Shown piece by piece: positions 50,401 through 64,000 of a DNA stretch of 64,000 nt. The position numbers and the translations under genes are program-made. The stretch covers positions 1 through 64,000 of the forward strand of contig JAGCUU010000016.1 of the NCBI GenBank assembly GCA_017962665.1, in the 5' to 3' direction. The first letter of the stretch is position 1. The number at the start of each line of letters is the position of its first letter. The DNA is from Bacteroidales bacterium. GTDB taxonomy: Bacteria > Bacteroidota > Bacteroidia > Bacteroidales > P3. The notes beneath the pieces were generated by a model, which was not told where the DNA came from, ran no database searches, and was given only the letters and a program-made list of their open reading frames with translations.

Positions 50401-52202
50401 TCGTAAATACCTTTACCGCAGAATGAACCTTCGTTGAAAATATCTTGATATAATTCAAAACTTGCTGTTGTATAGACATCCAGGCCTCCCAAGCCGGCAA
50501 AAAGCTGGGCATAGCGACTCTTGTTGGTTACCTCAACGTCGACATTTACGCGTGGCTGCATAATTCCGTATCCGGCATCCACACGTCTCCCGTCTTTGCT
50601 TAATTTGGCACGGTTCAGTGGATGTGCCATGGCACCTATGAGTTTTTGAGCGGAATAAAGTACAAGTTCGGTGTCGGTGTCAAGTGTGATTATAAACTGT
50701 ATGGGACTGGTCTGTCCCTCTTCGGTCTCAAGCCATTTGCTTATTGTCTCACAGCGGAACCGTTTGCTTTTTTCATCTTCTGAAGTTTGACCAAGCACAA
50801 GGTCGTTGAAATGGAGAATGGCGCCGCGTTTGCGTTCATGGCCAAGCCAGGTCTGTTCACCTTCGCTCCATGCTCGACGGCGGTATACGAAATTAAATAT
50901 ATGAGCACCGTATTTTTCGTTCAACTCCTTGACTTTCGCCAATCCGGCTTCTACTACCTCTTCGTCCCATGGTGCATCAGCATCCTTGTATGATGCGGCG
51001 TCACCAATAAGTGTGTAATAGAGATTTTGTGGACGACTCTCAAGACGTTGAAAGGTGTTGCTCTTTTCGTCGATAGAAGCTCTATTGATATTTGATAGGT
51101 AATATATCTCAAGTTGCTCAAGCAATTCAATGGTCTTGGCCTTGTTCTTCAAGATAGTAGGCATTATGACCATTGTGGCATATTCTTTGGGTATAAGTCC
51201 GTCTTTGAATTTAATCTTGAATGTCCCCATGGGTTTGTGCAACTTCCCGAGAAGCCAGTTGAACAGGTCGATGACAATCTGGCTCATAGGAACAATCAGT
51301 AGTATAAATAAAATGATGTTGAAAATAATTGATTGGAATACAAGGCCGTTAACAGCACAAAAAACAAAACATGCAGACAATAACAATGTTGATATTGTTA
51401 CGATGAAGATGTATAGGTGTGCCCTTGTATTCCATTTTTTGGGAGGGAATAGTTGCCAGCCGACATGCTCGCCTTTTTCGTCTGCTCTCTGGACTATTTC
51501 TTTAACCAGATCATGCTCTTTTACTTTGCGTTTCTTGCATAGACGGACAATCTTGGCACGGTAGTCGTCTTTTGTTTTGTCATACATCTGGTCGTACATG
51601 TCGGCCTTCTCTGCTTTGAGCATCTTCTCTGAGAAACTGACTGAGTCAAGGATTTCAGCCATTGGCAGTTTCGTCATCTTCTTAAGAGAATTGAAGATGT
51701 TCATCATCATGAGATTGTCGCGAGCAGCCTCGTCAAGATGAGTAATGTCGGCTTGATTTTTAGCCGTGACGGAATAGTGGTATGCTCCCGACGCTTTCAT
51801 CTGCTTGCAAAGGTCAGCAAGCTCTTTGATTAGTATATGTTTAATCAGTGGCAGTAATGCACATACTTCAGGGTATGACAGATAGTCTTTCTGATTTACT
51901 TGAATTTGGCAGAGATATCTGAAGAACAGGTTCTTGTCAATAAGATGGTGACTTCGTCTAAGATAATTTAGAAGCAGTTGCTCGAGTGTATTTAGGCGCT
52001 TGGAATTGATGTTTCGGAACTCCTTGCTTTGCAAATCTATTTTGAGTACCTTTTCCTGCTCGCTTATCATATAATAGTTGTCAAGCACCCACTCGTTGGT
52101 GCTGCCTACAAGACGCTGACTTCTGGTCTCTTCAACCAAAAGCATGTAGTAGTCAGTTATTGTTTTTATGTTTCGCTTAAAAGACTTGTATGTGCTGCTC
52201 AA
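44448..52202 (-). CDS. Cyclic beta-1,2-glucan synthase-like enzyme (NdvB/Cgs type)
   Basis: 2584 residues, close to the ~2800 of NdvB. An N-terminal soluble part (~1-260) is followed by membrane helices (~262-325), a GT84-like glycosyltransferase domain with DTDTE near residue 508, and HHRWTRGDWQI near residue 655. More membrane helices lie at ~685-760 and ~845-890. A large glucoamylase/GH-like region and a C-terminal GH94 phosphorylase-like domain complete it, with SDDYLWLVFVTHQYV and GCGDWNDGMSRVG (near residue 2264). In proteobacteria such enzymes make periplasmic cyclic glucans. It lies 44 bp after the unknown operon and may be its last gene. Confidence 0.88.
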   Translation of the reverse strand: MSSTYKSFKRNIKTITDYYMLLVEETRSQRLVGSTNEWVLDNYYMISEQEKVLKIDLQSKEFRNINSKRLNTLEQLLLNYLRRSHHLIDKNLFFRYLCQIQVNQKDYLSYPEVCALLPLIKHILIKELADLCKQMKASGAYHYSVTAKNQADITHLDEAARDNLMMMNIFNSLKKMTKLPMAEILDSVSFSEKMLKAEKADMYDQMYDKTKDDYRAKIVRLCKKRKVKEHDLVKEIVQRADEKGEHVGWQLFPPKKWNTRAHLYIFIVTISTLLLSACFVFCAVNGLVFQSIIFNIILFILLIVPMSQIVIDLFNWLLGKLHKPMGTFKIKFKDGLIPKEYATMVIMPTILKNKAKTIELLEQLEIYYLSNINRASIDEKSNTFQRLESRPQNLYYTLIGDAASYKDADAPWDEEVVEAGLAKVKELNEKYGAHIFNFVYRRRAWSEGEQTWLGHERKRGAILHFNDLVLGQTSEDEKSKRFRCETISKWLETEEGQTSPIQFIITLDTDTELVLYSAQKLIGAMAHPLNRAKLSKDGRRVDAGYGIMQPRVNVDVEVTNKSRYAQLFAGLGGLDVYTTASFELYQDIFNEGSFCGKGIYDLRVFQQVLKGTFPENLILSHDLIEGCHIRCGLINDLELFDDNPSNYIDDAKRHHRWTRGDWQIIGWLKNKVRNEKGEKVKNQVNTIGRWKIFDNLRRSMLSLALMVMLLVGFSGLTWMHPVWFLIVALVAVASPIVFFIIGQITKMPSVGKRYHYYATLMRGFKVIIYRSIVQFALLPKEAWMYTDAAVRACYRMWFSHHDLLAWITSDEAAKSTKGTLGDYIGKFWFNYVASALLIFLHLSSYGNMADFIAMLFCVVTWCGAPVLMYWLGKKFPQDKNTLNEKETEEVRQLARDTWRFFDTLLTEENNWLIPDNYQLNRESRADYKTSPTNIGYSITAVISAAELGFIEHREAVDKISHIIDTVEKLDKWNGHLFNWYHITNLKSLPNYFISTCDSGNFVACLYVAKGYLDKLAKNSNDNSGVIEIIQSTKEKIQNLIVQTDFSKLYNPELDVFSIGYDSVGRTLLPYHYNNFASEARLTSFLTIAQGDAPYKHWFCLDKTLVQYKGYKGVASWYGTLFEYFMPLIFLPTFKHTLMDETYSFAIRAQRAFINNNKSSNNLPWGISETAYNELDDAQNYKYHAFGVPYLKFQNTTPDRIVISPYSSLMTIAIDDRAVYDNINRFKGLDMYDTQAKPDGEPTAFGFFESYDEEDHIPVKAHYAHHQGMILAALTNYLADHCLQHYFMHEPAMRSMETLLKEKAQVKPYIDLKVTQYKRYQYSKVQTESDARDFDGIANVPEIGVVSNGQYTVLMNDRGSGFSRYRDILINRYRKISSDHYGTYLYIRDLRSDKIWSATYSPLDIMPESYHVSFASDKLQYIRVDNGIETKCEVTVLKQRSAEIRRFTFTNNNATDIDLEITSYGEVVLSTAAEDENHRVFSSMKVLSEYDETHQSLIFSRPISSGTRNYLLHKLWISEKNDEYENPELVEYETSRIKFLGRGGSLRHADIIESRRTLTGTVGTTLDPIMSMRRRLHIVAGKSVEAYIITGFAKSKEQLLQITEQYQDGLDIEHAFKTASVFNNMRNGMSLLKGSQMRLYNNISKYMAQTATLGDKRGEILSRNTLSQSGLWRFGISGDLAILLMEVDSMEHSGFAKELLRAFEYYKIHGLRLDLVFINDAPGRESEGLTHYIRGMADTEHLWVTHSDAGHVYILDGNDINEEERTLLHTVARLSFNTKDGLRLEQQLASLEAANQHYQDKVEYPVLRPKKEFRVWSHLEYYNQYGGFDNGGRDYVVTNTNTPMPWVNVIANDGANGQGVFGCIVSSTMAGFTFACNAQQFKLTGWSNDIVRDNASEMLLIDGQQFVPATARHGQGWSAFDADYDNMHIDVRLFVALDSMEKYYQIRVANKGEEKLALHLDMVYKLVLGMTEEHTARYLYSEWDEVTNSIYIRNVYHPIYRNKVVRLTATEPLTDIALQYPNRKRLGLDIEIPAGKEKEIAFTIAVSDRETSSKGLKNATIKDIYAEYERVVEYWDEKLSHIQVETPDNTFNHMLNRWYLYQVYASRLYARAGFYQVGGATGFRDQLQDVMSILYSDPGYARRQILDHAAHQFAEGDVLHWWHSSMHLGARTTFSDDYLWLVFVTHQYVKVTGDTSILAEQIPFCQGDQLSPGEAERGMNYALPEKEDIEQGANFQYASLYEHLKRSIGRSMSRIGAHGLPLMGCGDWNDGMSRVGVEGKGESVWVAFFLADLLPKMEELTMLMSQLSTSQFPSPDLSYCEELSSFRARLIQALQKNAWDGAWFLRAFYDNGQAMGSRMATECQIDLISQAWSILTDVATPKQKLSIMRETDNRLVNREHEIIQLLTPPFRSIRDENTVNPGYIANYPAGVRENGGQYTHGAMWYIMAQLKEGRNDMAYFLYSLINPIHRTRTLADVLKYKVEPYCMAADIYSNSQHPGRGGWTWYTGSASWAYKTGIENILGLYKDGDKLRIDPHIPTEWNTFSIRYRYGNSTYIIKYERPKQPTTPYTIDLIDDGQEHVVLIN

Positions 52203-52246
52203 TTTGGTAAGGAGTTAAAAAGTTAGTGTTTTGATGTTGTGTTTTG

Positions 52247-53764
52247 CTATCTGGTATAATAGAATGATTGGTAACTAGATTTTGTGAGATGATTTCCCCT
52301 GTTGCAAATGCCAACGTAATATTTCAGATCGGTACGTCCACTTCGTGTGATATGTAGTTCGTCGTAGGGCATGAAGATTGAAACTGTACGGCTGGCGCTA
52401 CTGCTATATGGTGTATAATGCGTGGATGCGGAGACCTGGCCGTCAGTAGTATGGTAACTGTTGTTACGGTCTTCGAGCCTTGTTCCATTCTCGTAATAGA
52501 ACCATGCAACGATTTCAAGATTTTGTCCACTAAGGTTATAGGCATTAAATGTGACATTGATACGCATTCCTTTATAGCCATTTTGGTACACGTTATGATC
52601 AGTGCTCACGTTAGTGATGCTGGCTGATGCCTGCACTGCAGACTGGGTAAGGTTGATGCGTACCTCTTTGTTTCCTGCAGTAACAGAGATATAGTATCCT
52701 GTACGGGAACTGGAGGAATTGTTGTCACTTGCATGTATTGTAAATGAACTGCTGTTTTTACTTTCGAGCGAGCAGAAATATGGTATGCTGTTTATTTTAT
52801 ATCCATCCGGATGGTCTGTGCTCACATAGAAAGTGTAGTTTCGTCCGCTACTTTCCATCGTGTATGAAAAGTTGTAGCTGTAGTCGTTCACCGTCAGTGA
52901 ACATTTTTCGTTGTAGGCATATCTCATATAGTCTTCTGCATCACTGCGCATGCTGCCAAGACTGCGGGGATGATTGCTGCCGTAGATTGCTGTGCCGGAG
53001 TATTCGTCACAGGCTGTTTTGAATTTGTCAAGATTGTCTTCGGTGGTGTAGAGCGAATAGTTTCTCCAATTTCGGATATAGGAGAAAAGATTGTCGATGT
53101 AATTATAGTGGGCGTCTCCGAGATTGTCTGGATAGTTTTTCAACCTGTAGTACAAATCGCTGTTTCCAATATAGATATCGTTACGGAACTCATCAGCTCT
53201 GTTTATTCTTTCACGTGAGTTGCTGAGACTTTCAAAATTTGTATAATTTAGCAGGTTTGTTGCGGAATTATAGTCACTACAGATAGACTCCAATTCGTTA
53301 AGGTCGGAATTGAGATCGACGTAATTGCCGACGACAGTATTATTATAGGATAGATTTTTTTTAGACCGGAGATAACTGATATGATTTGTTATTTCATCTC
53401 TTTCCGATACTCCCCAGTGACCATTTGTAGAGCTTGAAAGCCGTTCTTTTGTTGTTGCGGTGTAAATCGGGATATATGTCTGAAGAAGGTTCTCTTGCTC
53501 TTTATCGTGTGTCTTCTCGCCAATCAGTTTGTTCTGTTGCCACAGCATGACTTCATTGTCGGCAATACGAAACAACCAGTTTAGTTCAGACGGTGAGAGA
53601 TCGTTGTCGATGGCGTCTATGTCTTCGTCAAGAGCTGCTATGTATTGGTTGTCAGGTTCTGGAGCCATGGGGGGCTTGGTGATTAGCCTGAAGAGGTATA
53701 GGGTCATACCAGCCAAGAAAACAATGGCGGAGATAAGGATAATTATTTTGGCTGAAAGTTTCAT
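52247..53764 (-). CDS. Membrane-anchored protein with BACON-like domain
   Basis: 505 residues. One membrane helix at the N-terminus (residues ~7-25) is followed by a helical region of ~250 residues rich in Asn, Tyr and Ser. A BACON-like β-domain lies at ~290-378 (TFYVSTDHPDGYKI … VTAGNKEVRINLTQSA). A C-terminal β-domain from ~380 includes RINVTFNAYNLSGQNLEIV and SIFMPYDELHI. The latter domain reminds me of one on Bacteroidales serine proteases, which I cannot verify here. It starts 6 bp after the preceding gene's stop and should face the periplasm. Confidence 0.8.
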   Translation of the reverse strand: MKLSAKIIILISAIVFLAGMTLYLFRLITKPPMAPEPDNQYIAALDEDIDAIDNDLSPSELNWLFRIADNEVMLWQQNKLIGEKTHDKEQENLLQTYIPIYTATTKERLSSSTNGHWGVSERDEITNHISYLRSKKNLSYNNTVVGNYVDLNSDLNELESICSDYNSATNLLNYTNFESLSNSRERINRADEFRNDIYIGNSDLYYRLKNYPDNLGDAHYNYIDNLFSYIRNWRNYSLYTTEDNLDKFKTACDEYSGTAIYGSNHPRSLGSMRSDAEDYMRYAYNEKCSLTVNDYSYNFSYTMESSGRNYTFYVSTDHPDGYKINSIPYFCSLESKNSSSFTIHASDNNSSSSRTGYYISVTAGNKEVRINLTQSAVQASASITNVSTDHNVYQNGYKGMRINVTFNAYNLSGQNLEIVAWFYYENGTRLEDRNNSYHTTDGQVSASTHYTPYSSSASRTVSIFMPYDELHITRSGRTDLKYYVGICNRGNHLTKSSYQSFYYTR

Positions 53765-53770
53765 CTAATA

Positions 53771-55273
53771 TTAACTTCTTTGGTTTTCAGAATTATTATC
53801 ATTTTGTTTGATCTGATTGTCCCCTTGGGTATTTTTATCAGAGTTAGTTCCGCTCGCTTCTTTGGTAGTGTCGATTTCTATTGTATCTTTATTGTCGATG
53901 GTTGTACTGCTGTTCTGAATAGTCATTGCAGAATCGTTTGTAGTTGCTGCACCTTCCCCATCGTTTTGACTGTTTTTGTTAAAAACCAACATCACCAATA
54001 TACCCAGGACTATACCTACAATTGCCGATGCAATGATAGGAATAAGTATCTTGGAATTCTTGTAGTCTACGTATGGAACAAGTCTATCGGTACATTGTTT
54101 GTCAACCCTGTATCCGGCAATTGGTGAAACCCTTTGTTCGCCCTTGTTCGCTTCGACAGAGAGCAAAAAGTCAATGTTCTTGTTTTTTTCGAGTATGTTT
54201 TTAACTTTGAAAGTTCTCTTCTCTACTTGGTTGTTGAGCTCGATATGGATAATCTTTTTCCCGAAGATGTTTAAGGCCTTTCTATATACTTCAAAGTTTT
54301 CACTCTGAATTTCTACGGTAATATTTTTCGCTTGGCTCTCATTAATTTCTACCGAACTGCTGACTTTTTCGTTCCCCAAACGTAACAGGAATCCCTCTAC
54401 AGGTTTCCCGTTTTTGTCTGTAACAGCGAACATCTCTTTGCTGATGGTTATCTTCCAATCAAGTTTATCGGCTTTTATAGTGTTGTCGTTTTCCTTAACG
54501 GTGTAGATCATGTCCAAAGGACTGAAACTTTTGCGTTCAAAGTGGAATTTTATGCTATCAGCCTCATGGTGAAGATATTTTTTCCCCTGTTCAATCTCTT
54601 TTTTGTCGGTTGTGACGTCGTATGCTGTTATATCTTTTGGGAAATTGCTGTCAAGTTGTACGAATGTCACTTTCAGCAGATTCTCTTTTACTTCATCCAA
54701 TTTGCAGCGCTCGTTTTTTTTGCTTTTTGGGATTAGGAATACTCCTTTGTATTTGGAATGTGTGGGCTGAAGAAGGTATTCGCTTGTGAGAAGTTTGGCC
54801 TGCTGCCCTTCTTCTACATAGCGCACGGCATACCTCTCTCCGGTGGAAATTGAAGGGATTACAGTTTTGTCGTCATAGCTGCAACTCTTTAAACCATTGG
54901 CAATTTTTTCAAAAGGCGTAATATCGTCATTATCGCTGTTCGTATATTTGTTTATGTTATCCTGTAGCTCGGCGCTGAGTGCAGGAATGTCATCCTTAAA
55001 TGATGCAACTATTGCTTTGGGGATAAAAATCCATGCTGCGAAATAGTCATTGGTGCGTCCGCCTGACAGTGTGAGTCCTGAAATAACATATACTCCCTCT
55101 TCGCTATGTGATATTAATAGGAAAGGAGCATCGGATTCGATTCCGGCCATACCTATTGCAACGTTGCGGATATCAACAACTCCTTTTATCCACGATGCAT
55201 TGGGCTGCGATTCAAATAATCTTTTTTCTCCATTAAATACTTCTTGTATACAAAGTCCGAGTTTTGCTTCCAT
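53771..55273 (-). CDS. Unknown single-span membrane protein
   Basis: The ATG at 55271-55273 gives 500 residues beginning MEAKLGLCIQEVFNGEKRLF. The open frame continues upstream to 55516, but that part overlaps the GTPase gene and looks out of frame. Residues 1-400 look cytoplasmic: an N-terminal α/β domain and repeated β-strand sections. A single membrane helix at ~409-431 (PIIASAIVGIVLGILVMLVF) is followed by a 69-residue Asn/Asp/Thr-rich tail. If the N-terminus is inside, the tail is periplasmic. It is 53 bp after the GTPase gene and is not a family I recognise. Confidence 0.8.
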   Translation of the reverse strand: MEAKLGLCIQEVFNGEKRLFESQPNASWIKGVVDIRNVAIGMAGIESDAPFLLISHSEEGVYVISGLTLSGGRTNDYFAAWIFIPKAIVASFKDDIPALSAELQDNINKYTNSDNDDITPFEKIANGLKSCSYDDKTVIPSISTGERYAVRYVEEGQQAKLLTSEYLLQPTHSKYKGVFLIPKSKKNERCKLDEVKENLLKVTFVQLDSNFPKDITAYDVTTDKKEIEQGKKYLHHEADSIKFHFERKSFSPLDMIYTVKENDNTIKADKLDWKITISKEMFAVTDKNGKPVEGFLLRLGNEKVSSSVEINESQAKNITVEIQSENFEVYRKALNIFGKKIIHIELNNQVEKRTFKVKNILEKNKNIDFLLSVEANKGEQRVSPIAGYRVDKQCTDRLVPYVDYKNSKILIPIIASAIVGIVLGILVMLVFNKNSQNDGEGAATTNDSAMTIQNSSTTIDNKDTIEIDTTKEASGTNSDKNTQGDNQIKQNDNNSENQRS

Positions 55274-55326
55274 GATATATTGTAAATAATTGATTTTTTT
55301 GTGATTGGATTTTTGGGTTTGATGTA

Positions 55327-56475
55327 TTATTGTCTTAAAATTCTGACAATACGGCCAAGCTTGTTGCGCTCTACATAGGCGGAGCGTTCTACAATGTAGT
55401 CGAGTATCTCGCGAGCCGATGTTGCATTGAAACGGCACATGCGTCGCAACACGATATCGCCTATTGTGAATGGCACAAATTGAAGTTGACCACCATTGAT
55501 GCTGTTGTCCTTGCACATCTTTCGTAATGACGAATAGAAAGATCTGTAGTTTTGTGACATATAGTTGTAATAATGGTCGTCCTCATCTTGTCTGTTGTCG
55601 AAATTTCCAGCTTTGTCGGCCTTGGTAAGGACAATATATATTGCATCGGAGTATTCTCTGAAAACTCCGAGTTGGTTAAGATATTCGGCTGCACACTTGA
55701 GATACTCGTCTTGGCGTAGACCGTCTATCTTTTTATCTTGTGCACCATATTCAATGACAAAAAAATGAAGTTTCCTGTTCTCGCTGGCATGCTCTACCAG
55801 AAGATTGTTGAGAGTGTCGAAAGCAGTCTGTTCGTCATCGTTCAAAACATTGTTTTTGAATTTTTTGTATAGGCACTTGAACAGCTCTCCTGAAAGGTCG
55901 ATAAGAGACAATGGATGTTCTTTTTCATCACGTATAAGTGAAAACCGCATTTCATAGGTATTCATGATAGCTGTACCAGCTGGCAGGTATCCATATGCAC
56001 CGTCATGATGAAAAATCTCAGCAAGGTGCGACATGTAGGAACCTCCTTGGCATTGTTGCTGCATCATAGTGTCATCTCCGTTGTTGGCGATGCTTAACAG
56101 TGCTCCCAATGCGCATGATTTACCTGCGGCAGGCATTCCCCAGAAATAGACTTCAGTAGAACCGGGGGCAATGCTTTGTATAGGAACAAATTCGCTTGCG
56201 TCGGCTGGGTCGGTGGGTTCCTCTTCCAAAAGAAGGTCCACGAAATTGAAGTCAATATTGCAATCGTTGAAATCGTCTTTTGAAAGAATTTTTTTATTAA
56301 GTAGATAGCGAGCTGTGTCGGGGTCGATTATGTTTGGGTTTCGCAATAAAAGAGCCATCAAGATATCGCGATTCAAATCGCCGTATTCCAGTTTTCTTTC
56401 TATCTCGGCTTTGAGCCTGCGTGTCCTTAGCAGACTGCTTTCAAGCTGATTTAGTGTTTTTTCATCAATAGCCAT
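55327..56475 (-). CDS. P-loop GTPase-like protein
   Basis: 382 residues. The Walker A motif GMPAAGKS is at 113-120, a Walker B-like LIDLSGE at 191-197 and a guanine-specificity motif LTKADK at 283-288. That set points to a TRAFAC/Ras-like GTPase rather than an ATPase. An N-terminal helical segment of ~100 residues precedes the domain. No membrane segment is seen, so it is likely a cytoplasmic switch for the neighbouring membrane proteins. A comparison with SrfC-like GTPases is only a guess. Confidence 0.82.
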   Translation of the reverse strand: MAIDEKTLNQLESSLLRTRRLKAEIERKLEYGDLNRDILMALLLRNPNIIDPDTARYLLNKKILSKDDFNDCNIDFNFVDLLLEEEPTDPADASEFVPIQSIAPGSTEVYFWGMPAAGKSCALGALLSIANNGDDTMMQQQCQGGSYMSHLAEIFHHDGAYGYLPAGTAIMNTYEMRFSLIRDEKEHPLSLIDLSGELFKCLYKKFKNNVLNDDEQTAFDTLNNLLVEHASENRKLHFFVIEYGAQDKKIDGLRQDEYLKCAAEYLNQLGVFREYSDAIYIVLTKADKAGNFDNRQDEDDHYYNYMSQNYRSFYSSLRKMCKDNSINGGQLQFVPFTIGDIVLRRMCRFNATSAREILDYIVERSAYVERNKLGRIVRILRQ

Positions 56476-56502
56476 ATTACTATGTCCTTTGTCGTTGTTG
56501 TG

Positions 56503-57567
56503 TTATTCTTCTTCTTCATCGATGTCAAGAGTCATTGCCCTGTGACCAGTTTGAACACTGTTTCCTGTGTTGAGATTTTGAGCGCGGTGTACAGATGCGA
56601 TATGTCTGTTGTCGTCGTTTAGTGTGTTTGCATGCCGTTCTACAGCTATTCGTTCATTGGTATCAAGTTGTTGTGTCCTTCGTTGTTGACTGGTTTTTAT
56701 CTTTCTTTTTCCCCAGATTGTCACCATGCTGCGGGGACTGCGTTTCTGAATGAGCCAGGGCAGGAAAAGTAGTAGGAATGTTAGACCTGAAACCCAAGCC
56801 ATAGGTTGAGGAAACCCTGTTGTTGAGTATATTGATATTGTCTCCTTGAGTTTTTCAGTGGCAGCATCAATCTCTGTTTTTTTGACGAAAGGCTGTACAG
56901 ATAGCGATTCTGCATTCATCTTGTGTTGGGACAGCCGAGTCATCATTTCGCTCCAACTCTCCATACTTGAACAGATGTTGTCGATATTGCCTATCAGAAA
57001 AACATTCCAGACACTAAAGTTCTTTTTCGATTTTGTCAACCATTTAGTGGCTTCATCGTACAGATTCTTATACCGTGGTGGAGTCAATTGTAATTCAAGA
57101 CCTTTGCGGAGTACGATGTTTGAAAGGGAATCGCTGTTCTCTTCGGATTCTAATGTTGAAGAGTAAATGCTTTTTCTGTTATTTACATAGTGTTCGTAAT
57201 CGGCAAAAAGCTGCTCGGATGTATTCATCGCGAAATCGAAGCGGCTATGTATTTCATCTTCGTTGATTTTGACAGTCCAAAAGTGTGTAAAGACTACAAA
57301 TGAGGCACAGCATGCGATAATAAATAACACAAGAGTGATGCGCTCGTGTATTATTTTCTTTTCAAAATTGACATTGACAGCCTTGAGCAACTGCAGACGA
57401 AACAGTAGCAACAGTAAAACCACCATGATGGGAAGAGCAATAGCACCACCGATAATGTAGTTGCCTCGGGTATAGTACGTGACACTCATAAATATCACAT
57501 AACCTATAGCCAGAAGTGCAAGGAATGCAATGATGTGTCCAAATGAGAATTTAAGTTTCTCGTGCAT
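56503..57567 (-). CDS. Unknown multi-pass membrane protein
   Basis: 354 residues. Three hydrophobic segments lie near residues 10-30, 38-56 and 77-97, then a ~160-residue α-helical soluble loop, then a fourth helix near 264-282 and a basic and acidic C-terminal tail ending DIDEEEE. The loop between helices 3 and 4 is probably periplasmic. The gene is 12 bp after the small two-helix membrane protein and 27 bp before the GTPase gene. No family recognised. Confidence 0.78.
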   Translation of the reverse strand: MHEKLKFSFGHIIAFLALLAIGYVIFMSVTYYTRGNYIIGGAIALPIMVVLLLLLFRLQLLKAVNVNFEKKIIHERITLVLFIIACCASFVVFTHFWTVKINEDEIHSRFDFAMNTSEQLFADYEHYVNNRKSIYSSTLESEENSDSLSNIVLRKGLELQLTPPRYKNLYDEATKWLTKSKKNFSVWNVFLIGNIDNICSSMESWSEMMTRLSQHKMNAESLSVQPFVKKTEIDAATEKLKETISIYSTTGFPQPMAWVSGLTFLLLFLPWLIQKRSPRSMVTIWGKRKIKTSQQRRTQQLDTNERIAVERHANTLNDDNRHIASVHRAQNLNTGNSVQTGHRAMTLDIDEEEE

Positions 57568-57579
57568 TTAATCTGTCTG

Positions 57580-57756
57580 TTAAAAAAGTGAGACTACAAA
57601 AACAAAGGTTCCAACTACAACCAGGAGGATACCTAAAATTTTGAATACTGTATTAATGATGTCGGAAGCTCCGCCTTTGCCGACAATACCAGGGAACACT
57701 TTCCAAAAAAGAAGTCCAATAATGATGTAAAGGATACCTGTAAAATTAATGTGCAT
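57580..57756 (-). CDS. Small two-helix membrane protein
   Basis: 58 residues beginning MHINFTGILYIIIGLLFWKV and ending VSLF, read directly from the reverse strand between an ATG at 57754-57756 and a TAA at 57580-57582. It has two hydrophobic helices separated by a short loop (PGIVGKGGASDI). It lies between two operon members, with 44 bp upstream and 12 bp downstream, on the same strand. Its small size makes it easy to miss. It may be a subunit or stabiliser of the membrane complex. Confidence 0.65.
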   Translation of the reverse strand: MHINFTGILYIIIGLLFWKVFPGIVGKGGASDIINTVFKILGILLVVVGTFVFVVSLF

Positions 57757-57800
57757 GGTTAGTAAGTTTTAATTGATTGTATGATGTGTTTGATTGTATT

Positions 57801-58505
57801 CTATTTCAAAATATTTCCGTATATGTCAAAGTGAACAGTTTCGTGGTATTTTGCGTTATAAGCTGTTCCGCGACCGCCATTTGCAAGCACATATTTCCGC
57901 AAGGCCATGGGGTCAGAAATGCCATCTTCGTTGATACAAATAATAATGTTTTGTTCTTTCATCCTGATGAATAGTCCATGTTCTGCTTCATAGGCCATGG
58001 CTGTATTAGGAATCGTTCTTTTGGTTTTACTGTTTTTTTCTATAAACCCCCATTCGTTGTTCTCTTTTATCCATAGATATCTGTAAGCTGTACAGCAGTC
58101 CACGTCATCATATTCGGCTTCGAGAACCAGTTTGTGTGAGTTGATGTCGTAAAGGCCGTGATGATGTTCGTCTGCTACAATCTCGAGGGTTTGATGGGCG
58201 CTGTCGTAAATTGGAAGAGATGGAATTGATTGTGGAAGTATTTCTTCGCCGTCAATTGTGCTATAGAGAGTCCAAAGGTCTCCAAGACGGCAATAGGCTA
58301 TTACTCCGTCATCGGAGAGTTTTATTTCGTCGAAAACCGGCATGACAACAATACGATCATTGGTTATAACCCCATATCTGTCGTTCATACAGGCTATGTT
58401 GGCGAAAGATACAGACTCAACTATCTCTGGTTTTTCTTTGAATTTGAGACGCTGTTGTGCATTTTCGTATCGACGGTCATATGTCTTTTTCAGCTCAGGA
58501 TTCAT
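57801..58505 (-). CDS. WG-repeat-like protein
   Basis: 234 residues without signal or membrane segment. Three WG/KWG-type repeats are visible: RYGVITNDRIVVMPVFDEI, HHGLYDINSHKLVLEAEYDD and EWGFIEKNSKTKRTIPN. Such repeats form β-rich scaffolds in Bacteroidota. Its ATG overlaps the previous gene's stop by 4 bp, so translation is probably coupled. It is likely a binding or scaffold subunit. Confidence 0.75.
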   Translation of the reverse strand: MNPELKKTYDRRYENAQQRLKFKEKPEIVESVSFANIACMNDRYGVITNDRIVVMPVFDEIKLSDDGVIAYCRLGDLWTLYSTIDGEEILPQSIPSLPIYDSAHQTLEIVADEHHHGLYDINSHKLVLEAEYDDVDCCTAYRYLWIKENNEWGFIEKNSKTKRTIPNTAMAYEAEHGLFIRMKEQNIIICINEDGISDPMALRKYVLANGGRGTAYNAKYHETVHFDIYGNILK

Positions 58506-59215
58506 TGAGGCGTATTATTGTTAGTTGTCAGTGTGTCGAAAAAAATTCTTGCTGCGAAAGTGCTGGTTCCTGTTTCTGCAAGCAAATCCAACAATTGTTG
58601 TATTTCGTCTTTGCTACTATCATGTTGTATCATGCATGCAGCTTGGTTGTATACTGTGCGGATGTCGGGAGCCACTTTTGTCTTGTGGAAATTGCGAAGG
58701 AGCGAAACATCCAGTTTTTGATGATAAGATGAGGGAGGAAGGAAGAAAAGGTTGACAAGATTAATGTTGCCCACTGTTGGAATATTCAGTGGACCTTTTT
58801 GGAATGTGAAGTTTTCAGGGATATTGATTGATTCACCACATGGGAGAGATTGAATAGTGCTATGTGCGACGAGGAAACAGACAGGAGAAAGTTTTATCAG
58901 TTTGACGTTGCGTGGATCACCATTTGTGGCGTTTTGAAAGACAAGTTTGAGATATTCTCCAGCAAGGATTTCTCTGACGAGGATGGGGTAATCCATGTGT
59001 TGTTCGCTGACGAAATATTCGCCTTTTGCTCCTCTGAAAAAGGAATCCATCTCTTCGTTTGAGGTGTGGGTGAGCGTTTTTATTTCATTCCAACGTTCAC
59101 TTCCAGGTTCACGTAGAGTCATTTCATACCGCGTAGATGTGCCTCGTTCGGTGAGGCACATCCCACGGCATGATTCTTCAAAAAGGAGTTTATATACTTC
59201 CTTATTTACACTCAT
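58502..59215 (-). CDS. Unknown soluble protein
   Basis: 237 residues, not recognised. An N-terminal β-rich half (RYEMTLREPGSERW, EYFVSEQHMDYP) is followed by a helical C-terminal part (KDEIQQLLDLLAETG). No signal peptide is visible. The start overlaps the end of the protease gene by 14 bp and its stop overlaps the WG-repeat gene's start by 4 bp, so it is embedded in the operon. Confidence 0.75.
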   Translation of the reverse strand: MSVNKEVYKLLFEESCRGMCLTERGTSTRYEMTLREPGSERWNEIKTLTHTSNEEMDSFFRGAKGEYFVSEQHMDYPILVREILAGEYLKLVFQNATNGDPRNVKLIKLSPVCFLVAHSTIQSLPCGESINIPENFTFQKGPLNIPTVGNINLVNLFFLPPSSYHQKLDVSLLRNFHKTKVAPDIRTVYNQAACMIQHDSSKDEIQQLLDLLAETGTSTFAARIFFDTLTTNNNTPQ

Positions 59216-60290
59216 AATCCAGTTTTAGTTGGTCGAGCATTTCACGCACCTGAAGGATATTGATTCCGGCATTGATTCCTTCTCCAGCATTGGAACCCAT
59301 ATCATGGACAGCAATGACGATACCGTTGTCAAGAGCTACAGGTCCACCGCTGTTGCCAGGATTGGTGGCAATGTCGTAAACCACAATGTGTGTGTTAGGA
59401 CGTCCGTGAAGGTCGTCGGTTTTATAACTGCCAATAGTTCCTTGGGTATAGTTGGCTGTGTACATGATTCCGCTCTTGTCGCTGGGGTTGCCGAATGTTT
59501 GGATATGGCTTCCTACGGGAGCTTGTACTTTCGAAAGATGGAAGTAGGGGACAGTCTCGCCATCGTTAAGATCGACTTGGAAGATTGTGATGTCTTTATC
59601 CTCAAGAGGTGATGAATAGATGACTCGTTTTATTTTACGTTGATTCTCGGAATTACTGTCGTCAGCGCTCTTTCCGTAGGTGTAAATAACGGCGGAACTT
59701 TCGTAGTGTGGAGGAAGCACATGGTTGTTGGTCAGAGCCAGGCCGTTGCTGCCGATAAAGAATCCTGTACCCATGCCTTCTGGTGTCTGGACAAGGAAAG
59801 TCCTCTGTTTCATGTAAAGTGCAATGTCGGGTATGTTGCCTTCGTGGTTGCATCCCTTGAAAAGCACACGCCAATTCTCAATACTGTCTTTCATGTTCGC
59901 TTCAGTGTAAACAGTGTTGTCTGCACGTGCGCATTGGCGTAGAATCTGACCGTTTAGGCATACGTTTTCCGGTAGAATAAAAACATAGGCCCTGACTTTT
60001 TCTGTCGCTTTTTTGTAGTCCTGTTTTTTTGCCTGCTTGTCGGCGACGAGCAGTACTTTCTGTCCTACAAGGTTAATGCTTTCCATATATGTGCTTGTCG
60101 ACTCATGGTTGGGTGCAATGCCAAGCAACTCTACGCGGAGTCCAGTCGAGAGCTTAATGGTGTTGCCATTTATTATCTCTTTCACTGTACCTTTGGTACC
60201 GGTGATTTTATGAACTCTGCTGCCGCAACCAGAAAGAATTGTTACTGCAATCAAACAAACTGCAAGGATGCTTAAATGTGTTTTTCTCAT
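59202..60290 (-). CDS. Lipoprotein: degenerate SNase-like OB fold fused to trypsin-like protease
   Basis: 362 residues with a lipobox ending LSGC (Cys22). Residues ~34-125 resemble the thermonuclease fold (VKEIINGNTIKLS, VELLGIAP, RAYVFI, QILRQCAR), but the usual Asp and Arg of DGDT and VRLIGID are replaced (NGNT, VELLGIA). The S1 protease domain follows with His190 (NNHVL), Asp233 (DKDITIF) and Ser314 (NPGNSGGP). It should be a membrane-attached periplasmic protease. The combination suggests a regulated protease that senses a ligand through the OB fold. Confidence 0.87.
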   Translation of the reverse strand: MRKTHLSILAVCLIAVTILSGCGSRVHKITGTKGTVKEIINGNTIKLSTGLRVELLGIAPNHESTSTYMESINLVGQKVLLVADKQAKKQDYKKATEKVRAYVFILPENVCLNGQILRQCARADNTVYTEANMKDSIENWRVLFKGCNHEGNIPDIALYMKQRTFLVQTPEGMGTGFFIGSNGLALTNNHVLPPHYESSAVIYTYGKSADDSNSENQRKIKRVIYSSPLEDKDITIFQVDLNDGETVPYFHLSKVQAPVGSHIQTFGNPSDKSGIMYTANYTQGTIGSYKTDDLHGRPNTHIVVYDIATNPGNSGGPVALDNGIVIAVHDMGSNAGEGINAGINILQVREMLDQLKLDYECK

Positions 60291-60314
60291 AATAATTAAA
60301 CTATATTTGATTGT

Positions 60315-60971
60315 TTACATTGCAGTTATTTTTACCTTGCATGGTTTTGTTATTATCCATGCTCTAGAGTTTATTTCGCTGCGTTTAACCATTCCGTAAT
60401 CGACGAAGTCATATCTCGAATTTGCTGTAACTTCGCCTTCGTACTCAACAACCTGAGGAATTAATATATTTTCCCTTGATTCATACACTGCCTGGCTTTC
60501 GGAACCAGGAACTTCTAACTTATAAAAACCTTCACCTTTTTTGAGGTCAATATAAAATTTGAAGTATTGGTTTGGAGCATCGTTGGGACTCAGTCGTATA
60601 AAACCATACTTTTTTGTCTCTTCTTCATCGAAGAATGGCTGATCTCTGAATAAGTTTGGATCACCAGTCGGTTTTTGAGGTGTCGTTGCAGGCTGGTTGC
60701 TGTATATAGGTTGTTGTGTATTTGGTTGTATCTGCTCTACATGTTGAGAAATATCTGGTTTCTGTGTTTCGTTAACATCTACATTATAGCCTTGAGTCAT
60801 TCCATTGCCAGTCGTAGACATGTGTGCTGCCAGATTTTGCAGAGTCTGTGCTATATAGCGTATCTCTCCAGCGCGGTCTGCTCCGCAAGGATTTACTACA
60901 TCAAGGAAATTATAAAATGCAGTTGTCAAGTTATGCAGTGCATCTTGAAATTTTGGGTCTTCTGTATTCAT
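60315..60971 (-). CDS. Unknown protein sharing a C-terminal domain with its neighbour
   Basis: 218 residues without a signal peptide or membrane segment. Residues 1-55 are helical, ~56-105 is a Gln/Pro/Thr-rich linker and ~115-218 is a β-rich domain ending AWIITKPCKVKITAM. This domain aligns by eye with the C-terminus of the gene at 60991, which ends DWIVTEKMTIKLV. It starts 19 bp after that gene and is followed by the protease after 24 bp. Confidence 0.75.
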   Translation of the reverse strand: MNTEDPKFQDALHNLTTAFYNFLDVVNPCGADRAGEIRYIAQTLQNLAAHMSTTGNGMTQGYNVDVNETQKPDISQHVEQIQPNTQQPIYSNQPATTPQKPTGDPNLFRDQPFFDEEETKKYGFIRLSPNDAPNQYFKFYIDLKKGEGFYKLEVPGSESQAVYESRENILIPQVVEYEGEVTANSRYDFVDYGMVKRSEINSRAWIITKPCKVKITAM

Positions 60972-60990
60972 GTACTATAAAAATGTTTGG

Positions 60991-61869
60991 TTACACTAAT
61001 TTTATTGTCATTTTTTCGGTAACAATCCAGTCGGTACCATTTTTTTCCATAGTACCTGGTTTTACCGTGACAATGTCTTTTGCACTTGAATTCGATTCGA
61101 AATCTTTTGTACACATACGCAGGGTTGATACATCGGCAAGTATCTGCTCGATTACTTTTCTGTTGATATCGTATGTAGCTCTGTTACCATTGATTTTCAT
61201 GCAGAACCAACTGATGGGTTCATCTTTTAAGTTGCGTTCGCGCACCATTGCCTTGCCTCCTTGCTCGGTAAGCATGAAGTATTTTACAGTTTCTTTTGGA
61301 GATTGAGAGGTTTGTTGGGTCGATTGGCTTGTTTGTGGGCGTTGTGTTACTTCTGATGAGCGACTGGGCTGTTGATGCGTTTGTTGCTGTCGTGTTTGCT
61401 GTTGTGCTCGCGAATTGTCGTCACGAATCTCATTTACTTTTTTCTCAATGTTTTTCGATGCATCCAGCAACGAATTATTGAACTTGTTTGCAAAATCTTT
61501 CAGTTGTTGTTTCTGTTCTTTTCTTAATTGTTCCTGATCACTCTGCATTTTACGATAGAAGTAGAAACCAGCACCTGCAGCAGCTAACAGAAGAATAAAG
61601 GTGAATCTATTACCGCGACGAGCCTTTTTGATATCCTTTTTGAGATCTTTGATACTCTCTTCAAGTTCTTCAATTTGGTCGCTCGTAATGGTTGTAGTAT
61701 TGTCTGTTTTAACCTCTTTCTTCGCCTTTTGAGTTATCTCTTGTAATTTAGAACTGTCAACGTTAGGGGTATCGTTGGGTTCTGCATAACAGTTACCAGC
61801 GATTCCAATCAGTGCTGCGAGCAGCACTGATTGGATTACTGTATTGAATTTGTGTTTTAAAGTCATCAT
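60991..61869 (-). CDS. Exported or anchored coiled-coil protein
   Basis: 292 residues with a cleavable-type signal (ending NCYA). A coiled coil (~40-80, ITSDQIEELEESIKDLKKDI) precedes a membrane helix near 85-107 (FTFILLLAAAGAGFYFY), then a basic helical region and a Gln/Thr/Ser-rich linker (~150-190). The C-terminal domain (~192-292) is homologous by eye to the one in the next gene. It starts 8 bp after the Hsp70-like gene. If the signal is cleaved, the remaining helix anchors the protein. Confidence 0.78.
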   Translation of the reverse strand: MMTLKHKFNTVIQSVLLAALIGIAGNCYAEPNDTPNVDSSKLQEITQKAKKEVKTDNTTTITSDQIEELEESIKDLKKDIKKARRGNRFTFILLLAAAGAGFYFYRKMQSDQEQLRKEQKQQLKDFANKFNNSLLDASKNIEKKVNEIRDDNSRAQQQTRQQQTHQQPSRSSEVTQRPQTSQSTQQTSQSPKETVKYFMLTEQGGKAMVRERNLKDEPISWFCMKINGNRATYDINRKVIEQILADVSTLRMCTKDFESNSSAKDIVTVKPGTMEKNGTDWIVTEKMTIKLV

Positions 61870-61877
61870 TTTTTGAT

Positions 61878-64000
61878 TTAAATTTCAAAACCATAGTTGA
61901 ATAGCATGTCTTTGAATGCCCAGAAGAACAATGGGTCTTTCTGTTTGCCTTCGGAACTATTTTTACTTGCAATAATATGCCAACTTTTGAAACTGTCATC
62001 AGCCAGTTTCATTATCTTGGCCTTGTCAATTGGCTTATAGTTCCATCCACAGTGTAATGTATCCTTGGTGTCTTTAAAGAAGTTGCTGTTGAAATAATCA
62101 ATGCAGTTTTCAACAAGTTTAAGAACGTCATTTGTCTTGCCACTTACATCGCACTGTTGCAGATTGTCGAATTCTGATTCTCCGTCATAACCCCATACAA
62201 TTCTTTCAGATTGTCTTAGTTGTTCGTTTGGATGATGGAAAACCACACCTCCACGAGCAGTGACAACCTTTGGACGATCAATCATTTTGACATTCAAAGC
62301 AGCTGCTTTATTTGCAGGTATACCCTGGTATTGTAGTACCGATTTGATGATTTCTGCAATTTTGTTGTCTTGCTGACTGATGATTTTGAGATAGAGGCTT
62401 CCCATACCTGTAAAACTCATTTTATCTGGCACACCAAATCCCTCTTTCTTAAGGATGAGTCCAACGAAGTATGACACGGCAACAAGATGAATCAGAGGAA
62501 GCGAAATCAGTTTTGATGTGGAAAGATAATCAGAGAAGTGGTAATCGTTGTCGTATTTGAAGAGGAAACTGATTACGTCGGAAGAATCTTCTGCTGTATC
62601 TTTGAACCTTGTGAACCTGTCTTTGAGTTGTTGCGCAAGAGTTGGTAGATAGTTGTCGCAATAATCCCGAATGAATGCGTTGTTCTTTTTGTTGGCACTC
62701 TGTTCATCCAGACCGTCTCCCCAAAGGTCATCGGCTGCAAAACGTGCAGAGTAGGTATAGCTTTCGTTGTCAGTAGGGTCGAAGTATACAATATCCATCG
62801 TACCACCTCCGATATCAATATTCATGAATTTTTCACGAGGTTTCACCCAACCAAGCTTTCTCAGATAGTACCATGGCACAATACTTTCGTCTGGGTGTAG
62901 TTGGTCGTTTAGTTGTTGGTTGTATTTAGTCTGCTTAAGTTCTCCAACATTTTTGCAACTGCAAGCTTTTACGTTAATTCGAGCATTGTTCCAAGCGTCA
63001 TATAGCGTTCTCTGGCTGTTATCGTCCATCGATTGTGGGAAGGTGAAATAGAAGTTGAAATTAATTCCACAGTCGCTAAAAACAGCTTTGTTTTTAAGTA
63101 ACCACATTACTTCATTGAAGAATGTTTCCCTTAGTTTTATGGATTTGCCGTCGCTTTTCCATTTGATATTCTTCTCGTATTTATTTCCTATCTTTTTAGG
63201 ATCGGTCTCTTCATTTAGGAAATAAAAACCGACATTGGCATCTCCAAAAAGATTACAATCAACGGTATTTGTATCAGCCATCCATCTATTCGCTACACAT
63301 ACTGCTGTTCTGATGGGGAATGACAGTTGTGTGTTGGATATTGTTTTGTTGCCAGTATCCAAAAGTATGTCTTCAGGAACGAACTCGCGTTTCATGTTCG
63401 GCAGATAGGTTATGTAGCTTTTGCTGTCGAATAGGCTTACAACTTGGGCTTCAATTTCACTTGAATATTCGAAATCAGAAGGCTCCTCAACAGTGCTTCC
63501 CTTGTCTATAGCATACGCGATATGTGTGTTTGTCGTTCCGAAGTCGACACAATATACCATATTGTTTGTTCCAAGTCTTTTGTAAAGGAATAATGGTAGT
63601 ACGGCACCTTTTGCACCGTTTGTTTCCACTTCAATAAGATCGAAACTTTCGTTAACAGTATAATACTTTGTACAAATAGATTCGTTGATGCTGCGCTCTT
63701 TTGTCTTTACGTTGATTTCTGAGTTGATATTGTCAAGGTTGTAGAAATGGAGTTCAACATTTCCTTTGCAACCAAGCATTACAGAATATTTGTTGTAAGC
63801 CGCATCGTCGTCAATAAGTTTGTAGAATGGAAATATGGACATGTTGAAGATATTCGATGAGGCGTCGTCCATATATACAATGTCTTTTTCGAAATATGTT
63901 CTCTTTAATTCCACGGTTCCTCTCTTCACAGGGATATTAAGAGTTGCAGTAACCGAGCCATTCTTGTTCTGTGTGATGGAATAGAGCTCTTTGTTGGTTC
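61878..64000 (-). CDS. Hsp70/actin-like ATPase, N-terminus beyond the right edge
   Basis: At least 707 residues are visible; the frame is open to the edge. A GTG at 63929 is a possible start, but the upstream codons (TNKELYSITQNKNGSVTATL) read as coding, so the gene is probably longer. A β-rich region of 150+ residues precedes the nucleotide-binding domain, which has the phosphate-1 motif VDFGTTNTHIAY, the phosphate-2 motif DIGGGTMDIVYF and an adenosine-like GMGSLYL. No DnaK substrate domain follows. The N-terminal extension before an Hsp70-like fold is unusual. Confidence 0.85.
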   Translation of the reverse strand, partial: TNKELYSITQNKNGSVTATLNIPVKRGTVELKRTYFEKDIVYMDDASSNIFNMSIFPFYKLIDDDAAYNKYSVMLGCKGNVELHFYNLDNINSEINVKTKERSINESICTKYYTVNESFDLIEVETNGAKGAVLPLFLYKRLGTNNMVYCVDFGTTNTHIAYAIDKGSTVEEPSDFEYSSEIEAQVVSLFDSKSYITYLPNMKREFVPEDILLDTGNKTISNTQLSFPIRTAVCVANRWMADTNTVDCNLFGDANVGFYFLNEETDPKKIGNKYEKNIKWKSDGKSIKLRETFFNEVMWLLKNKAVFSDCGINFNFYFTFPQSMDDNSQRTLYDAWNNARINVKACSCKNVGELKQTKYNQQLNDQLHPDESIVPWYYLRKLGWVKPREKFMNIDIGGGTMDIVYFDPTDNESYTYSARFAADDLWGDGLDEQSANKKNNAFIRDYCDNYLPTLAQQLKDRFTRFKDTAEDSSDVISFLFKYDNDYHFSDYLSTSKLISLPLIHLVAVSYFVGLILKKEGFGVPDKMSFTGMGSLYLKIISQQDNKIAEIIKSVLQYQGIPANKAAALNVKMIDRPKVVTARGGVVFHHPNEQLRQSERIVWGYDGESEFDNLQQCDVSGKTNDVLKLVENCIDYFNSNFFKDTKDTLHCGWNYKPIDKAKIMKLADDSFKSWHIIASKNSSEGKQKDPLFFWAFKDMLFNYGFEI

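Follow-up and report, generated by a model that had tools for sequence, protein, structure and literature searches.

What is the run of same-strand genes at the right-hand end of a 64,000-nucleotide stretch of a Bacteroidales genome (assembly GCA_017962665.1), and is it a system of a new kind? The stretch, hereafter the window, comprises bases 1-64000 of contig JAGCUU010000016.1 (C37; 196,863 bp), in an assembly that is 76.6% complete. A sequence-only reading of the window had described eleven genes from position 52247 to the edge as a candidate undescribed system. The eleven minus-strand genes are indeed there, counting one cut by the edge (g07) and a 58-residue open reading frame (ORF; g12b), and they belong to a larger unit. 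Upstream, the contig carries six further genes with no change of strand, reaching position 74509; the 17 genes, all on the minus strand, form an operon at contig positions 52,247-74,509, of which the window covers the 3' half (11.8 of 22.3 kb). Because the genes are on the minus strand, the operon runs leftwards from the right edge of the window and its start lies beyond that edge. The operon joins two modules, A (g01-g12) and B (g13-g16), with the boundary at g12/g13. We propose, with about even confidence, that it is a hybrid, made up of two accessory modules, and a variant of the predicted FtsZl1 and double-GTPase systems, most likely a membrane-proximal machine for envelope stress or for conflict with phages or competitors. 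The proposal starts from direct observations of gene content, gene order, conservation, the module boundary and the retained nucleotide-binding motifs.

Operon layout and the proposed tubulin-like/Hsp70-like core of module A

The genes are tightly packed (Table 1). Gaps within the window measure 6-44 bp, in keeping with the limit of 53 bp given earlier; the three overlaps that had been counted come down to two (4 and 14 bp). Across the whole operon the gaps stay at or below 64 bp, except for 150 bp between g03 and g04. Hydrophobic segments occur in six window proteins besides Hsp70B (g08, g10, g12b, g13, g15, and g16), which bears out the estimate of at least five membrane-anchored proteins. 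A Pfam scan of 16 of the 17 genes (g12b was left out) gave matches above cut-off for only four: TerB, Hsp70A, the tubulin-like protein, and g10. The tubulin-like protein, a second Hsp70, a vWA-like protein, and TerB were beyond the reach of any reading confined to the window.

Hsp70B (g07) was correctly taken to be an Hsp70/actin-like ATPase. A profile of 26 family members matches the structures of Hsc70 (E 6.3e-5) and MreB (7e-5) around the second phosphate motif, and D644, G646, T647, N649, D887, G889, G890, T892, D894, and G1023 are invariant in 26/26. Hsp70B itself is without a Pfam match at E<=0.01, and FtsA is matched weakly by 6 of the 26 family members. Profile-profile probabilities were weak: 51% for Hsp70B with SrfB (around the phosphate motif), 11% for Hsp70A with SrfB, and 5% for Hsp70B with Hsp70A. 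In the tubulin-like family the FGGTG loop is invariant in 31/31 members, Tubulin_2 matches 17 of the 31 at E<=0.001, and the family profile finds a tubulin/FtsZ chain in the PDB weakly (E 0.016).

The vWA label of g04 rests on motif and position, neither g04 nor its relative in locus L047 having a Pfam match; [DE]xSxSM is found within the first 160 residues of 28 of 35 clustered vWA-like proteins (with D in 4 of these). The lipoprotein g10 is a protease, as predicted, scoring 64.8 bits against Trypsin_2 (PF13365; cut-off 27.6) and 49.1 against Trypsin (cut-off 20.6). It keeps the H and S motifs (ALTNNHV, TNPGNSGGPV) and in PADLOC matches peptidase parts only (RT-Protease_XI, 2.6e-15). A free-standing SNase gene is present in a module A relative (PF00565, E 7.5e-23). 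The WG-repeat score of g12 (15.3 bits) is below the cut-off of 25.6.

Scanning GTDB genomes with Hsp70B alone named at least 34 loci, which derive from one query and are not a random sample; since only Hsp70B was used, the neighbouring genes are independent evidence. The listed loci come from Hymenobacter, Prevotella, Adhaeribacter, Mucilaginibacter, Christiangramia, Maribacter, and others, with one in Fibrimonadaceae. A tubulin-like gene is found in 34 of these 34 loci, directly upstream of Hsp70B in 33, and a vWA-like gene lies no more than two genes upstream in 33, the contig ending there in the exception. In 28 loci the small membrane gene falls into a common cluster. Two protein clusters, C05 (19 loci) and C06 (18 loci), occur together in 18 and are positioned after Hsp70B. 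ZorB1 models match all five C06 proteins scanned (ZorB/OmpA-like; best E 1.6e-13 to 4.5e-9), and ZorA models weakly match all five C05 proteins scanned (best E 1.3e-6 to 6.4e-3), one of which scores 21.8 with MotA_ExbB (cut-off 22.9). A trypsin-like protein cluster is represented in 5 of the 34 loci, including a g10-resembling form in Prevotella lacticifex, and SNase genes are present in 4.

Prevotella lacticifex (L059) is colinear with the operon for g02-g08 and g10-g12, and together with the other listed loci it supports the expectation of an operon with several NTPases and numerous membrane proteins that keeps its gene order in other genomes. Its Hsp70A counterpart is 34% identical over its length; relatives of g08 (weak, E 1.4e-8), g11 (E 2e-13), and g12 (E 6e-26) were detected, and the position of g09 is held by a 217-residue gene without detected similarity. 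Hsp70A is rare, with matches in 3 of 393 genomes of the order, two of them at a tubulin locus and the third (G357) near apparent type I restriction genes (by eye). An Hsp70A relative at L013:14103-20000 is in frame with a long N-terminal part that has a signal-peptide-like start, and P. lacticifex has a separate, secreted-looking 439-residue gene immediately upstream of its Hsp70A (L156:4212-5531). A by-eye reading of L015:2460-3038 as TerD was dropped, as it has no Pfam match. Pairs of zinc-ribbon genes lie beside module A at L059:17576-19664 and beside module B at L088:12283-14404; in both pairs the first gene encodes a protease domain of the PrsW type, scoring 75.0 and 75.4 bits.

The GTPase cassette of module B

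The P-loop GTPase g14 has the Walker A, Walker B, and TKAD motifs that had been read from the window, and G113, G118, K119, G196, E197, T284, K285, and D287 are invariant in 9/9 members of its family. The g14 protein itself matches neither the DO-GTPase1 nor the DO-GTPase2 model. One family member (L095:8850-10190) passes DO-GTPase1 (32.4 bits, cut-off 27) and stays below the same cut-off for DO-GTPase2 (26.3). A profile of the eight other rows of the family alignment, which was made together with this member, matches it with E 3.6e-39. These comparisons suggest that g14 is a distant relative of the double-GTPase (DO-GTPase) family, the link running through this one member. The Pfam models used were PF19993, PF20014 (GAP1-M), PF07520 (SrfB), and PF10139 (Virul_Fac, SrfC).

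Matches to g14 were obtained in 11 of the 393 genomes of the order, this one included. Genomes with module A gave 11 matches, of which 7 were only weak and were left out. The order scan (10) and the strong matches in module A genomes (4) yield 14 GTPase loci outside the window; counts are on 12, leaving out G389 and L096, a 3.9-kb contig of G210 in which ORF comparison did not show the cassette. The usual order in the 12 readable loci is SrfB, SrfC, a peptidase (S8 or related), a four-transmembrane (4TM) protein, the GTPase, and further genes. SrfC is present in 11, upstream of the cassette, SrfB in 9, and the S8 or related gene in 11. The sole locus without SrfC (L091) starts at the 4TM gene on its contig. 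In L089 the Pfam scores reach 604.9 bits (SrfB) and 384.2 bits (SrfC); in G145 (L088) SrfC is represented by 359 residues where the contig begins, a piece that phmmer detected (5e-20) and the Pfam genome search missed.

Relatives of g13 were recognized by sequence upstream of the GTPase in 10 of the 12 loci, directly in 9 and with one gene between in L113; none was recognized in L095, which has a 359-residue gene at its place, or in L159. Relatives of g15 were found in L088 (3e-13) and L113 (2e-15), and those of g16 in L112 (6e-13) and L113 (3e-19); the other module B loci have genes without detected similarity at these places. The proposed identity of g15 as GAP1 found no support, g15 and four proteins at its place being without a GAP1 match. 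In P. lacticifex (L112:14933-19386) an SrfC-like gene is seemingly split, with an opposite-strand 456-residue ORF between the pieces. In G056 (L116:7426-10604) two P-loop genes, of which one is a DO-GTPase2 match, come after a short gene that looks Hsp70-like (by eye); we regard this as a compact double-GTPase-type locus.

The sequence-only reading had pointed to SrfABC-type loci. That lead stood for the GTPase cassette and failed for the ATPases of the window, which were tried as SrfB or SrfC and rejected because there is no Pfam SrfB/Virul_Fac match in the 16 genes or the genome. Pfam searches did find both in the controls G062 and G046; as the assembly is incomplete, absence claims for this genome are weak.

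Table 1. Genes of the operon, listed from its start. C37 coordinates refer to the contig; the others are window positions.
Gene	Product	Position	Strand	Evidence
g01	TerB	C37:74060-74509	-	Pfam 25.3 bits, cut-off 24.4
g02	Hsp70A, Hsp70-like ATPase	C37:70773-74036	-	PF00012 23.2 bits, cut-off 20.6
g03	Coiled-coil protein	C37:69194-70708	-	
g04	vWA-like lipoprotein	C37:67772-69043	-	DNSGSM motif (by eye) and position
g05	Small transmembrane protein	C37:67175-67735	-	
g06	Tubulin-like protein	C37:65523-67136	-	Tubulin_2 PF13809 30.3 bits, cut-off 27
g07	Hsp70B, actin/Hsp70-like ATPase, 1198 residues	C37:61878-65474, edge-cut (61878..64000 in window)	-	
g08	292 residues, N-terminal hydrophobic segment and coiled-coil-like stretch	60991..61869	-	
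g09	Soluble protein, 218 residues	60315..60971	-	No Pfam match at E<=1
g10	Lipoprotein, trypsin-like protease with degenerate SNase-like N-terminal region (by eye)	59202..60290	-	
g11	Soluble protein, 237 residues	58502..59215	-	
g12	234 residues, last gene of module A	57801..58505	-	Weak WG-repeat similarity
g12b	58 residues, two hydrophobic segments, at A/B junction	57580..57756	-	No PADLOC match
g13	4TM protein, first gene of module B	56503..57567	-	
g14	P-loop GTPase	55327..56475	-	Motifs GMPAAGKS, DLSGE, TKAD
g15	505 residues, one C-terminal hydrophobic segment, directly downstream of GTPase	53771..55288	-	
g16	N-terminally anchored, BACON-like stretch, last gene	52247..53764	-	BACON 22.8 bits, below cut-off 25

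A proposed envelope machine and its alternatives

The operon looks accessory, judging from its patchy distribution, its lower guanine-plus-cytosine (GC) content (41.1%, against 45.1% and 45.8% in its two flanks), and comparison with a close genome. The tubulin profile matches 23 of the 393 genomes of the order, its own included (neighbourhoods were read for G000, G046, G052, and G210), and a distant tubulin-like gene is present in 1 of 36 other genomes of the genus. The operon start adjoins a tRNA-Met. In G035, the nearest genome by IlvE (98% identical), RuvX and def (by eye) precede the same tRNA-Met and ilvE; DNA similarity between G035 and C37 begins at 74850, between operon and tRNA, and tblastn did not find RuvX or def in 95 kb of C37. 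A rearrangement may alternatively account for this difference. At the other end, a 2584-residue gene (44448-52202) lies 44 bp downstream of g16, likewise on the minus strand, and could be co-transcribed with the operon; by eye, we take its product to resemble the cyclic beta-glucan synthases. A rho-like gene at C37:77255-79342 is in two ORFs (77255-78829 and 78842-79342), through an assembly error or a real break.

We suggest that module A is a form of the FtsZl1 system, in which the tubulin-like GTP-binding protein and Hsp70B would be the core, placed beside the vWA-like lipoprotein and the small membrane protein and here also beside Hsp70A, TerB, and the lipoprotein protease. Module B would be a switch cassette of the 4TM protein, the double-GTPase-like protein, and two anchored proteins; elsewhere it accompanies SrfB/SrfC, a pair that would represent another actin-like ATPase with a P-loop partner. 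Disturbance of the envelope may be sensed by the anchored g04, g08, g10, g15, and g16, with the GTPase/4TM unit setting a threshold. The response would then be committed by a GTP/ATP-driven assembly of the tubulin-like and Hsp70-like proteins beneath the inner membrane, and the protease could carry it out or release it. A role in conflict or stress, to which we give roughly an even chance, is favoured because ZorAB-like genes occur in the relatives. More tentatively, the operon may represent a widespread, unnamed immune or envelope-stress machine of Bacteroidota, in which a fixed tubulin-like and actin/Hsp70-like pair takes interchangeable modules, a ZorAB motor in about half of the listed relatives and here the double-GTPase cassette of SrfBC loci. 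We rate this lower because modules A and B seldom share a genome. If it is true, one cassette serves two unrelated actin-like machines and would be a general signalling plug-in. The GTPase cassette common to SrfBC loci and the ZorAB-like genes of the relatives connect three puzzling sets of operons.

Several observations count against the proposed conflict or stress machine. The A+B hybrid was seen once. Tubulin and GTPase matches coincide only in G000, G046, and G210 (of 23 and 11 genomes, respectively), and G046 has them on separate contigs. Strong GTPase matches were found in 4 of the 34 listed module A genomes, each on a contig that differs from the module A contig by length or number. No PADLOC model was convincingly matched by the 17 operon proteins, and the ZorA matches of C05 are partly coiled coil. 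GAP1-M (PF20014) was found in 0 of 5 genomes including this one, with a positive C. glutamicum control; other GAP1 models were not searched separately. Mobility was not shown: among 50,697 phage records none has Hsp70B, and among 72,556 plasmid records a single one does, a Prevotella replicon of 1.77 Mb; tubulin is matched in three plasmid records, and one viral contig was found. Integrase-like genes lie near only two loci, the two that served as queries. These tyrosine-integrase-like genes (by eye; L156:7422-8717 and L047:1-1140) match each other at 5e-67, and similarity to the two found no integrase in 95 kb of C37. A mobile-element reading was not borne out by the phage, plasmid, viral, and integrase searches.

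Two unrelated same-strand operons might simply abut at 57.57-57.80 kb, each working alone. The boundary is sharp, the block conserved in P. lacticifex ends at g12, and module B lies there with SrfBC on a contig other than that of module A, all of which, with the single occurrence of the hybrid, fits a chance neighbourhood. A promoter-like site (57809-57781, minus strand, 9/12 matches) directly before g12b points the same way and also weighs against our proposal, although such sites are no commoner than chance (30, against 28.2 in shuffles). The junction, however, consists of gaps of 12 and 44 bp with the small ORF g12b between, all 10 terminator-like sites in 52000-64000 are on the plus strand, and this genome (76.6% complete) yielded neither SrfB nor SrfC, with which module B usually occurs. 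We regard two independent operons as rather doubtful.

A physiological role in membrane remodelling or vesicle formation, with tubulin-like filaments shaping the inner membrane and adaptors supplied by the vWA-like protein, the GTPase, and the anchored proteins, also suits the parts of the operon, a further point against a conflict or stress machine. The same role was proposed for FtsZl1 systems from the same kinds of parts (Makarova and Koonin, 2010; PMC2875224), and anchored proteins are many. Against it, an accessory character is suggested by the patchy distribution, the lower GC, the protease, and the cassette held in common with SrfBC loci. A reviewer of that paper found cytoplasmic and periplasmic parts ill-suited to one complex, and its authors were unable to assign T6-H7 of the FtsZ fold with confidence. 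We find remodelling somewhat unlikely. Quality control of surface proteins under envelope stress is unlikely in our view. Damaged or exported proteins would be handled by the Hsp70-like ATPases and the lipoprotein trypsin, with TerB as a Ter-like stress link; TerB and Hsp70A pass their Pfam cut-offs, and J-domain-like proteins (by eye) occur in the relative L047. Yet the Hsp70A match is partial (its best stretch spans 183-350 of the 599 positions of PF00012), Hsp70B is without a match to any Hsp70 model in Pfam, a substrate-binding domain was seen in neither, and the 16 genes gave no Pfam match to another Ter family.

Comparison with known systems

The claim of an undescribed system of a new kind found no support, as accounts of similar operons (2010; PMC2875224) and of double-GTPase systems (Kaur et al., 2020; PMC7159879) already existed. 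The open-access literature yielded no other paper on the combined parts, nor a test of the role predicted for FtsZl1 operons since 2010. The pairing of nucleotide-binding and substrate-binding domains typical of an Hsp70 chaperone was not seen in Hsp70A or Hsp70B, no AAA family, as in MoxR-vWA ternary systems, is among the Pfam matches at E<=1 of the 16 genes, and passages of PMC12204202 show no tubulin. The Zorya ZorAB motor is resembled by the scanned members of C05 and C06, clusters that occur together in 18 of the 34 listed relatives, whereas no ZorA or ZorB was detected in the operon itself, which gave only coiled-coil-type PADLOC matches to ZorA3 (g03, 0.029; g08, 0.017). As for SrfABC loci (PMC6950479), 11 of 12 loci have the relatives of module B downstream of SrfC, and the SrfB profile matches Hsp70B weakly (51%), although SrfB and SrfC are missing from the matches of this operon and genome.

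The FtsZl1 operons encode membrane proteins and a GTPase together with FtsZ-like and vWA proteins, and their family alignment includes a Bacteroides caccae protein (PMC2875224). The present operon is alike in its FtsZ-like protein, vWA-like neighbour, numerous membrane proteins, and P-loop GTPase bearing TxKD. It differs in having two actin/Hsp70-like ATPases, TerB, and an SrfBC-type GTPase cassette; the word Hsp70 is absent from the main text of that paper. An OmpA-family protein is reported there in several genomes, and none is among the Pfam (16 genes) or PADLOC (17 proteins) matches of the operon. Double-GTPase systems occur with tubulin or HSP70, and a logic of sensing, threshold, assembly, and proteolytic output has been argued for conflict systems whose effectors likely form assemblies, like tubulins and HSP70 (PMC7159879). 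The operon resembles them in a GTPase that is probably a distant relative, in tubulin-like, vWA-like, and HSP70-like genes, and in transmembrane proteins. In that paper the GAP1-N2 tubulin and HSP70 themes are non-overlapping and belong to Firmicutes and Actinobacteria; here no GAP1 was detected, and tubulin and HSP70 stand together in one operon.

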